DNA from: Thermus brockianus
GTDB taxonomy: Bacteria; Deinococcota; Deinococci; Deinococcales; Thermaceae
NCBI RefSeq assembly: GCF_021462505.1
Contig: NZ_JAKEDV010000010.1
Span: 1-64,000 of the forward strand
Length of the DNA stretch: 64,000 nucleotides
Direction of reading: 5' to 3'
In this document: positions 53,068-55,269 of the stretch, piece by piece
How the letters are laid out: the number at the start of each line of letters is the position of its first letter
Position numbering within the stretch: the stretch's first letter is position 1
Program-made: the position numbers and the translations under genes
The notes under the pieces: generated by a model
Told to the model about the DNA's origin: nothing
Database searches by the model: none
What the model saw: only the letters and a program-made list of their open reading frames with translations

Positions 53068-53886
53068 CTACTCCGCGGTGTAGAGAAGATTGCGGAGCTC
53101 GCGGAACTGCTCCAGGTCCAGGGTTTCGCCCCGCGCCTCCGGGGGGAGGCCCAGGGCCTCTAGGGCCCTTTCCACCCTCTCCTTGGGGTAGCCCGCCGCC
53201 ACCAGGGCGTTTTTCAGGGTCTTCCGGCGTTTGCTAAAGGCGGCCTCCACCAGGCGGAAAAGCCCGGGGTCGTCGGGCACCCCCAGGGGCGTGAGGCGCA
53301 CCAGGCTGCTTTGGACCTTGGGCGGGGGGAAGAAGGCCCCAGGGGGAAGGTCAAAGAGCCTTTCCGCCCGGGCGTGGTGGGCCACCCTTAGGGAGAGCAC
53401 CCCGTAGGCGGGGCTTCCGGGCCCCGCCGTCATGCGCTCCGCCACCTCCTTCTGCACCAGGAAGACCAACCGGGCGAAGCGGCCCGTTTTGAGGAGGTGG
53501 GTGACCAGGGGGGTGGCGATGTTGTAGGGGAGGTTGGCCACGAGGAGGCTTCCTTCCGGCACCTCTTCCCAAGGGAAGCGGAGGGCGTCTTGGAAGAGGA
53601 GGCGCACGGGGAGGCCCTTAAGGGTTTCCTCCAGAACGGGTTTTAGCCGGGGGTCCTTCTCTATGGCCGTCACCTCGGCCCCCGCCTCCGCCAGGGCCCG
53701 GGTGAGGACGCCAAGCCCAGGCCCCACCTCAAAGACCGGCCCCGTGAAGGGCTTGGCCGCCTCCACGATGCGCCTGAGGTGGGCTTCGGAGACCAGGAAG
53801 TTCTGGCCGAGGCGCTTGTCGGCGAAAAGGCCGTGTCGGGAAAGGATGGCGCGCACCGCTTTGGGCGAGGTGAGGGGGTTAGGCAT
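53068..53886 (-). CDS. rsmA: 16S rRNA dimethyladenosine transferase KsgA
   Basis: KsgA dimethylates two adjacent adenosines near the 3' end of 16S rRNA as a late 30S assembly step. The 272-residue product has [16 protein letters not shown], the SAM motif [19 protein letters not shown], the catalytic [10 protein letters not shown] and VQKEVAERM, and the C-terminal [12 protein letters not shown]. The ATG at 53886 lies within the last codons of the phosphoesterase gene (8-base overlap). Confidence 0.96.
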
Positions 53887-54625
53887 GGGCAAGGCGCTTG
53901 ATCCGGGGCGTGAGGGGTTCCTCCTCTGGGGCAAGCTCCAGGTACTCCCCCAGGTCCAGGGCGTCAATGAGGGCGAAGCGTTCCTTGAGAAGGATACCCT
54001 CCCGCATGGGCACGTGGCCGTAGACGCCAAAGCGATAGCCCATCCGTTCCACGTAGTCGGGGGTGCGGAACCACCAGGTCTTGGGCTCGCTTTGGGCGTA
54101 GAAGAGCTCATCGTATTCCTGGAGCCAGGGCACGGGGCCCACGTGGGCGAAGTGGACGCCCTCGAGGAGGAGCTCCTTGGGGAAGCCCGCCATCCAGGCC
54201 TTTAGGGCCTCGGGCAGGGGTTTACCGCCCTTTTCGGGGTGGAACTCCAGGTGCCGCAGGTGGCGGTTCCCCAGGATGGGCTCGCCCTTTAGCGCGGCCT
54301 CGTCGTGGTTGCCCAGGAGGATGACCAGGTTGCCCTCCGCCTCTTCCTGGAACGCCTTCAACCGGAAAAGCTCCCGGATCTGGGCTCCGGCGGCCAGGCG
54401 GAGGTGGGTGGGGTCTTCGGGGTCAAAGGGGGAGAGGCCCGTGAGCCTTTCGTAGTCCCTCGGCGTCTTGGGGTGGACCAGGTCGCCCAGGAGGACCACC
54501 TTCACGGCCCCGGAGCGGAGGAGGGGGGTGGGCCTGAAGGAGGCGTCCGCCAGGCCCTCCGCCTTGAGGATCCGCCAGAGGGCGGGGAAGTTGGCGTGGA
54601 GGTCCCCGATGGCGACGATCCTCAT
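53879..54625 (-). CDS. Calcineurin-like metallophosphoesterase
   Basis: The 248-residue product has the dimetal motifs [36 protein letters not shown] and VYGHVPM. This is the serine/threonine-phosphatase/ApaH-like fold. The substrate is unknown. It overlaps the DdrA-like gene upstream by four bases and ksgA downstream by eight, so it is translated as part of that operon. Confidence 0.85.
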
Positions 54626-55269
54626 CCCTTGAGCAGGGCCCGAAGCTCCCCGTAGAGGCGCTTGGTTTCCTCGGGGGTCTTGCCGTAGCCCCCGTATTTG
54701 GTGACGATCTTGGCTGCCTCCTTCCCCAAGCCCTTCTCCTTTAGGCGCTCCAGGAGCTGGTCAATGAGGCGGTAAGCCTCGGGTTTTTCCTCTTCCTCGG
54801 GTTCGCCCGTTTCCGCCTCCAGGGGTTCGGGAAGCTTGGGCGGGGTGAAGCGGCCCTTTTCCGGGTCATAGTCCACCCACTGCTTCTCCAGGCGGTACAG
54901 GTAGCGCCCCACGCCGAACTTCACCGCTGCCCGCTTGAGGGCGTCGGAGAAGGCGGCCTTGAGGGAGTCGCCCTCGCCCACGTCCTCCTTGGTGACCCCG
55001 AGGACCGTGAGGCGGCACTTCACCTCGCAAAGCCGCTCCCGGCGCTCGCCCCGCTCGTCCCGGACCACCCTTTCTTGGTCGGCGAGGACCTCGTAGCTGT
55101 CGTGCCACCCCTCGGGCCCCACCACCCGGTCCAGGCGGTCCAAGACGGTGCGGGCGTCCACGTAGGGGACCACCAAGGCCCGCCTCCGGTCCTTGGAGAG
55201 GGCTTCTATGCGCCACTGCACCTCGGAGGGGGGAAAGGGTTCCGCCAGTTTACGCCAAACTTCGTCCAC
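54622..55269 (-). CDS. ddrA: Rad52/22-family DNA-end protein, DdrA-like
   Basis: The 215-residue product has the Rad52/Rad22 core: VPYVDARTVLDRLDRVVGPEGWHDSYEV, then CRLTVLG and DVGEGDSLKAAFSDALKRAAVKFGVGRYLY. An acidic linker (about 135-155) and a lysine-rich helical tail follow. In Deinococcus DdrA binds 3' single-stranded ends and protects them after irradiation or desiccation. The start is GTG, with TACACT six bases upstream and no spaced ribosome-binding site. It opens the operon with the phosphoesterase and ksgA genes. The symbol is given by family resemblance. Confidence 0.82.
   Translation of the reverse strand: MDEVWRKLAEPFPPSEVQWRIEALSKDRRRALVVPYVDARTVLDRLDRVVGPEGWHDSYEVLADQERVVRDERGERRERLCEVKCRLTVLGVTKEDVGEGDSLKAAFSDALKRAAVKFGVGRYLYRLEKQWVDYDPEKGRFTPPKLPEPLEAETGEPEEEEKPEAYRLIDQLLERLKEKGLGKEAAKIVTKYGGYGKTPEETKRLYGELRALLKG

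Follow-up and report, generated by a model that had tools for sequence, protein, structure and literature searches.

What does a gene for a Rad52-like protein do beside genes for a phosphoesterase and the rRNA methylase KsgA, and is it the radiation-response gene ddrA, the name under which an earlier note on this DNA had placed it? The question is raised by three minus-strand genes of Thermus brockianus, here called RAD, MPP1 and ksgA (Table 1), in a 64,000-nucleotide stretch of DNA (the window) from a genome of 2.35 Mb. The earlier note had described overlaps of 4 and 8 bases between them, and the open reading frame coordinates agree: RAD and MPP1 share positions 54622-54625, and MPP1 and ksgA share 53879-53886, with KsgA counted from the ATG at 53886 in a mechanical frame that extends to 54111. 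Its family assignments (Rad52-type, calcineurin-like phosphoesterase, KsgA) were likewise confirmed by profile scores. RAD falls in the Rad52 superfamily by its match to PF04098, Rad52_Rad22 (E=1.9e-19; 70.5 bits against a cut-off of 20.3), MPP1 matches PF00149, Metallophos (E=9.5e-9; 36.4 bits, cut-off 21.5), and the third protein is KsgA/RsmA by TIGR00755 (236.6 bits, cut-off 171). NCBIfam has no family for either RAD or MPP1. Other Thermus species, and other families too, have the 4-base overlap, which is therefore not a matter of chance.

Table 1. Features of the RAD-MPP1 locus (window coordinates)
Feature	Position	Strand	Description
ksgA/rsmA, 16S rRNA dimethyltransferase	53068..53886	-	272 aa; TIGR00755
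MPP1, PPP-fold metallophosphoesterase	53879..54625	-	248 aa; PF00149
RAD, Rad52-superfamily protein	54622..55269	-	215 aa; GTG start; PF04098
C-terminal domain (CTD) of RAD	54625..54789	-	55 residues; basic (pI 9.5); three helices (model); YGGYG loop
Likely operon promoter	55270..55290	-	CTAAAGTnnACTT; directly before RAD start codon; apparently leaderless type
Divergent small ORF, position of TTHA0080	55332..55670	+	112 aa; outside the conserved module

The trio itself is not new, having been annotated earlier in T. thermophilus. Reports on strain HB8 list TTHA0081-0082-0083, in that order, as the first three genes of an operon, annotated as Rad52_Rad22-like, metallophosphoesterase and 16S rRNA dimethyladenosine transferase (PMC8465061, PMC7662524); by description and operon position, RAD is the counterpart of TTHA0081. 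The divergent small ORF has no Pfam match above cut-off and is followed by a tRNA-Ala gene (anticodon CGC, 55708-55783), an arrangement whose HB8 counterpart is TTHA0080 with tRNA-Ala-3.

We examined the conservation of these genes in 111 Deinococcota genomes of five families, f1 (Thermaceae) to f5 (Trueperaceae); phylum-wide counts are taken without chromosomes of the genus Deinococcus. RAD was present in all 27 genomes of the genus Thermus, the window's own included. Across the phylum a RAD profile matched 107/111 genomes and all 85 of those of good quality, counting any RAD-type match, radiation-motif ones included; PF04098 alone detected Rad52 in 59/111. A phosphoesterase match was found in 108/111, five of which have only a distant paralog, MPP2, leaving 103 with MPP1 proper. 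In 99 of these 103, MPP1 has RAD as its immediate upstream neighbor on the same strand; the gap, measured from match ends and not gene ends, is at most 98 bases in 97 of the 99 and 128 and 305 bases in the other two. The pair thus extends well beyond this strain, one of the outcomes on which the earlier note had made its proposal depend. The four genomes with MPP1 and no adjacent RAD (G031-G034) all belong to family f3. A scan of genome contigs, which shares genomes with the main sample and so does not give independent counts, yielded 93 relatives; the best 80 were all from Deinococcota, with none from the genus Deinococcus. Among these 80, RAD was upstream in 58/62 MPP1-type loci, with gaps of -4 to +37 bp, the four without it being Deinococcales MAGs (L138-L141), three of them as long as f3 contigs, and it was absent from all 18 MPP2-type loci.

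There are also exceptions of the opposite kind. RAD occurs without MPP1 in G100, G105 and G110, and in G044, which is 64% complete; in the fragmented genome G020 the MPP1 frame is interrupted by stops. With MPP1 lacking an adjacent RAD in 4/103 genomes, and RAD keeping its CTD without MPP1 in G100, G105 and G110, neither gene strictly needs the other. General conservation of gene order is not the cause of the linkage, since MPP1 in the other four families has diverged to 43-58% identity with its counterpart here, and in three of those four neither KsgA nor NuoA was found beside it. That the two genes have stayed side by side suggests that their products work together on DNA; RAD and MPP1 very probably form a conserved functional pair, most simply read as serving DNA metabolism jointly. 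We found no literature report of a phylum-wide Rad52-phosphoesterase operon. Searches of phages, plasmids and viral contigs gave no match to MPP1, and a mobile origin for it was rejected; PADLOC gave no match for RAD or MPP1, and a defence system was rejected as well.

The earlier note had treated all three genes as a unit, and here only its first two members stand. A downstream KsgA was found in every one of the 20 loci from families f1 and f4, but in none of the 20 from f2, f3 and f5, among which five are MPP2 loci. Being limited to f1 and f4, it appears as an addition in two families, and the coupled unit is the Rad52-phosphoesterase pair; we therefore rejected KsgA as a functional third member. 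In two loci from two genera (L098, L109) a gene resembling, by eye, a CarD-type transcription regulator sits between MPP1 and ksgA. MPP2 has neighbors of its own: in G108 (L123:3258-4052) it overlaps by 4 bases a preceding 567-aa ORF, by eye similar to a RecQ helicase, and in L120 and L125 it follows an ORF with apparent LysM-like repeats, again by eye.

The AlphaFold model of RAD (pLDDT 90.8) has the Rad52 fold. Its top 11 matches in the PDB are chains of human Rad52 and yeast Mgm101 (E 6e-7 to 3e-5), the best being human Rad52 1h2i (E=6e-7), with 9yi6 superimposing at rmsd 2.5. The likeness is confined to the N-terminal fold: identities are 16-20%, and TM-scores over the whole RAD query are low (0.37-0.43) because the CTD of RAD is not shared. 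The same boundary is met in phage annealing proteins of the Erf/Rad52 type. RAD matches phrog_1097 at E=6.6e-34 and a protein of Thermus phage MN1 with 46% identity over residues 1-132, yet 0/157 phage records cover at least 80% of RAD, and the best 20 of the 157 end at or before residue 141, so that the CTD is not common to them; a weak match to phrog_3290 (E=2.6e-4) reaches residue 192. The MN1 gene, moreover, comes after an exonuclease gene and not a phosphatase gene.

It is the CTD that is the better conserved part of RAD. Mean pairwise identity over 42 aligned RADs is 39% in the Rad52 domain (residues 1-140) and 60% in the C-terminal part (residues 163-214). At E 0.01, PF04098 matched 19 of the 42 and missed 23, so that the conserved property may be something other than DNA binding. 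A profile of the CTD (A4) found it in 103/111 genomes, in single copy in all but three (an additional plasmid copy in G037, and weak second matches in G054 and G063). In the same 111 genomes it was not found in G028, G076, G085 and G101, which are 58-79% complete, nor in the four f3 genomes whose MPP1 stands without RAD beside it, so that the CTD tracks MPP1. Six genomes (G036-G041) have a shortened or degenerate Rad52 domain and an intact CTD. These patterns lead us to infer that the CTD ties RAD to a partner or to DNA, under stronger constraint than the Rad52 domain.

Searches of Pfam and the PDB gave no convincing match for the CTD, and none of 92 pattern matches in viral contigs was confirmed. 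By eye it resembles a helix-hairpin-helix (HhH) domain, but Pfam returned no HhH match and a known HhH domain was rejected; DdrA is listed in one report as containing an HHH motif (PMC1978522). Several individual loci bear on the domain. In G037, where the chromosomal copy has a shortened Rad52 domain, a 135,351-base plasmid (C1) carries a full-length Rad52-like gene with CTD (L228:3404-4165). The second G of the G-x-G turn in the CTD does not vary among the 42 aligned RADs; two RADs that have no MPP1 (L218:3251-3919, L219:3066-3758) have another residue there, and a third such RAD (L220) keeps the G. A second Thermus Rad52-like gene, seen in L225:3100-3570 (G000:C18) and L226:2979-3488 near an ORF that looks by eye like a UvrD-like helicase, has no CTD and is probably a mobile, phage-type annealing protein.

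For MPP1 the model (pLDDT 95.7) indicates a PPP fold, PPP enzymes being the best matches in both Foldseek and VIA-align. Residues D8, H10, D48, N106, H107, H161, H204 and D221 are invariant in 47 MPP1 sequences, so that an active enzyme is predicted; by the order of PPP motifs we take D8, H10, D48, N106, H161 and H204 (D, H, D, N, H, H) to be candidate metal ligands. The classic PPP motif II, GDxxDRG, is absent; MPP1 has in its place GDL-x-H-x-K, with H51 and K53 invariant in the 47 sequences. In the f3 MPP1s, which have no adjacent RAD, 7/66 conserved columns are changed, W17 most clearly, but four sequences of one clade are too few to name an interface. A nuclease of the SbcD/Mre11 type found no support: the profile search ranks PPP phosphatases first and 'Nuclease MPE' only at E=0.04, and the structure matches listed are PPP enzymes and other phosphoesterases.

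On what would such an enzyme act? Our preferred substrate, held tentatively and by analogy, is DNA with a 3′-phosphate, which would make MPP1 a DNA-end phosphatase; protein and then a nucleotide follow closely. One of the nearest structures is the phosphatase domain of Clostridium thermocellum PnkP (4j6o), which MPP1 matches at Z 16.7 with 23% identity, the highest among the best 50 VIA-align matches. PnkP is a multidomain RNA end-healing enzyme, in contrast to the single domain of MPP1. What speaks against action on DNA ends is that the best structural and profile match of the MPP1 model and sequence is a tyrosine phosphatase and not a DNA phosphatase. The Shewanella cold-active PPP-type tyrosine phosphatase (1v73, 2zbm) heads both the profile search of the PDB (E=1e-6) and the VIA-align list (Z 17.9 over 205 residues), and many protein phosphatases follow, among them PP5 and PP1 (Z about 14-15) and lambda phosphatase (14.3). 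MPP1 may thus be a protein phosphatase, for tyrosine or for serine/threonine, that reverses phosphorylation of RAD or of other repair proteins at DNA. The ranking of predicted folds taken by itself favours this possibility; however, PPP enzymes of all substrates have one fold, and match rank consequently says little on substrate. Identity to the Shewanella enzyme is 17-18%, and in MPP1 the sequence GDLVHPK stands where the canonical motif II would be. On balance we consider a protein substrate rather doubtful, ranking it just below DNA ends in our order.

A signalling nucleotide, mentioned in the earlier note, is unlikely. Here MPP1 would hydrolyse a dinucleoside polyphosphate or a related molecule as ApaH does, and RAD would merely be co-expressed with it. 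ApaH, the symmetrical Ap4A hydrolase, shares the PPP fold (Foldseek match to 9oly, E=2.7e-6), and a putative diadenosine tetraphosphatase, 2qjc, is matched in the profile search (E=1.3e-4) and in VIA-align (Z 15.3). The E. coli gene order is ksgA-apaG-apaH, which the ksgA downstream of MPP1 in f1 and f4 would echo. Set against this, MPP1 matches no NCBIfam family, for ApaH or otherwise, at E up to 0.1, and linkage to ksgA in two families only compares with a phylum-wide linkage to RAD.

We regard as improbable that the trio is simply a housekeeping operon, kept for the sake of expression and without functional coupling. Pair exceptions in both directions speak for it, as does a promoter element of a kind that also appears elsewhere, but the adjacency of RAD and MPP1 persists in families where neither KsgA nor NuoA was found at the locus. 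The likely promoter contains a palindrome, AAGTnnACTT (55275-55284), which is found directly before the RAD start in 15/16 Thermus loci compared and was not seen in 6 loci of other genera. The genome has 6 such sites against 7 for a control pattern, and with no enrichment a regulon was rejected. The palindrome likewise directly precedes the start codons of what by eye seem to be tyrS and thyX genes (L245:1501; L247:1501), and with similar elements there it looks like a leaderless promoter type. According to the HB8 reports, TTHA0080 and TTHA0081 are divergent with common binding sites, and sites for TTHA1359 and TTHB099 overlap the promoter of the trio (PMC8465061, PMC7662524). For wild type compared with TTHA1359-depleted HB8, the log2 values given show TTHA0081 (0.998) and TTHA0082 (1.00) changing together and ksgA (0.410) less, with weak significance values of 0.100, 0.107 and 0.558 (PMC8465061), while the trio is described as hardly changing in a TTHB099-deficient strain (PMC7662524).

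The name DdrA has a basis in the literature. D. radiodurans DdrA (DR0423) shares the Rad52-type domain with RAD, as do HB27 TTC1923 and HB8 TTHA0081, which are presumably the same gene. One report calls TTC1923 a DdrA homolog and names DR0041/Dgeo_0188 as a paralog of DdrA, which makes it a candidate for a Deinococcus Rad52 protein with the CTD (PMC1978522); another assigns DdrA a T. thermophilus ortholog (PMC1274311). DdrA is described as being under DdrO/IrrE control through sites of the radiation motif, RDRM, and in D. deserti as sharing an operon with the gene of a putative protein, Deide_09148 (PMC5552922). At the window operon the best RDRM score is 1.2 (55200-55400), against 15.1-26.6 for known sites; the maximum for the whole window, 13.5, lies away from RAD. 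In five other MPP1-linked loci scanned, one from f2 (L113) had a weak match of 13.1 at the RAD start, below the lowest known score of 15.1.

Rad52 genes that do have the motif sit at other loci. A Rad52-type gene placed after a small gene (about 95-120 aa) and divergent from a DdrO-like XRE regulator occurs in the f3 genomes and in G035 (L221-L224; L227:2634-4761), the regulator being Pfam-tested in L221 and L227 and judged by eye in the others. The regulator is adjoined by an IrrE-like protease (PF06114) in L221, L227 and, as judged by eye, L223; none was seen beside it in L222 or L224. All five loci have RDRM matches within the divergent region or at its border, although in L221 the best site (22.9) is elsewhere in the locus and the divergent-region site scores 22.8. 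In G027 an RDRM match is just upstream of a second Rad52 gene, with no XRE regulator beside that gene. Top scores in these six loci were 20.1-23.1, and with 100 dinucleotide shuffles per locus no score was attained more than once (once each in L223 and L224). The five regulator-linked loci apparently place a ddrA-like gene under RDR-type control in lineages other than the named genus Deinococcus. Among plasmid records, RAD matched two from Deinococcus; the Rad52 gene of the D. aetherius plasmid, which we examined, has no MPP1 beside it and no RDRM (top score 11.6, reached by 11/100 shuffles).

Both kinds of locus are present in G035 and G027, so that by position the window gene corresponds to the motif-free kind, and the DdrA label of the earlier note was dropped as a working name. 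Locus, motif and C-terminus set RAD apart: it has no RDRM, it has MPP1 as partner, and its C-terminus differs from those of the RDRM-linked genes compared. The tree of the Rad52 domain, built with no chromosomal Deinococcus DdrA, has weak forks and long branches at its deep splits. Shared superfamily, literature naming and the weak motif of L113 would make RAD the ddrA ortholog of Thermus; we hold this to be very improbable in view of its motif-free operon and the separate motif-bearing genes of G035 and G027, and the window gene is probably not ddrA itself.

The best overall reading, which we put forward tentatively, is that of an old chromosomal DNA-end module of Deinococcota, made up of a Rad52-type binder and a phosphatase. 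From its fold and from the biochemistry of DdrA, RAD would be an oligomeric binder of DNA ends or single-stranded DNA, and by the same analogy its place would be at 3′ ends. No annealing was detected with DdrA in one report, whose authors give a missing partner as one possible reason (PMC515370). The partner in the module would be MPP1, a predicted metal-dependent PPP-fold phosphatase, often translationally coupled to RAD. RAD may bring the phosphatase to broken or single-stranded DNA, with its basic CTD as the candidate contact, whether with DNA or with the phosphatase; MPP1 could then remove blocking 3′-phosphates, so that ends can be extended or annealed. In a broader and more speculative form, which we think rather unlikely as a whole, the module would be ancestral: an annealing protein partnered with a phosphatase and not with an exonuclease, the CTD of RAD delivering a PPP phosphatase that heals 3′-phosphate ends or resets phosphorylated repair proteins, outside the DdrO/IrrE response.

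Phages are the setting in which bacterial annealing proteins of the Rad52 type are most familiar. A Rad52 gene that sits on the chromosome and is linked to one for a phosphatase, throughout a phylum noted for its DNA repair, would be a pairing unlike that of phage MN1, with its exonuclease. If the module is real, it would give a testable role to the uncharacterised TTHA0081 and TTHA0082. The analysis also separates two kinds of gene that the cited literature treats jointly as DdrA, a separation that matters wherever Thermus serves as the radiation-sensitive comparison for Deinococcus.
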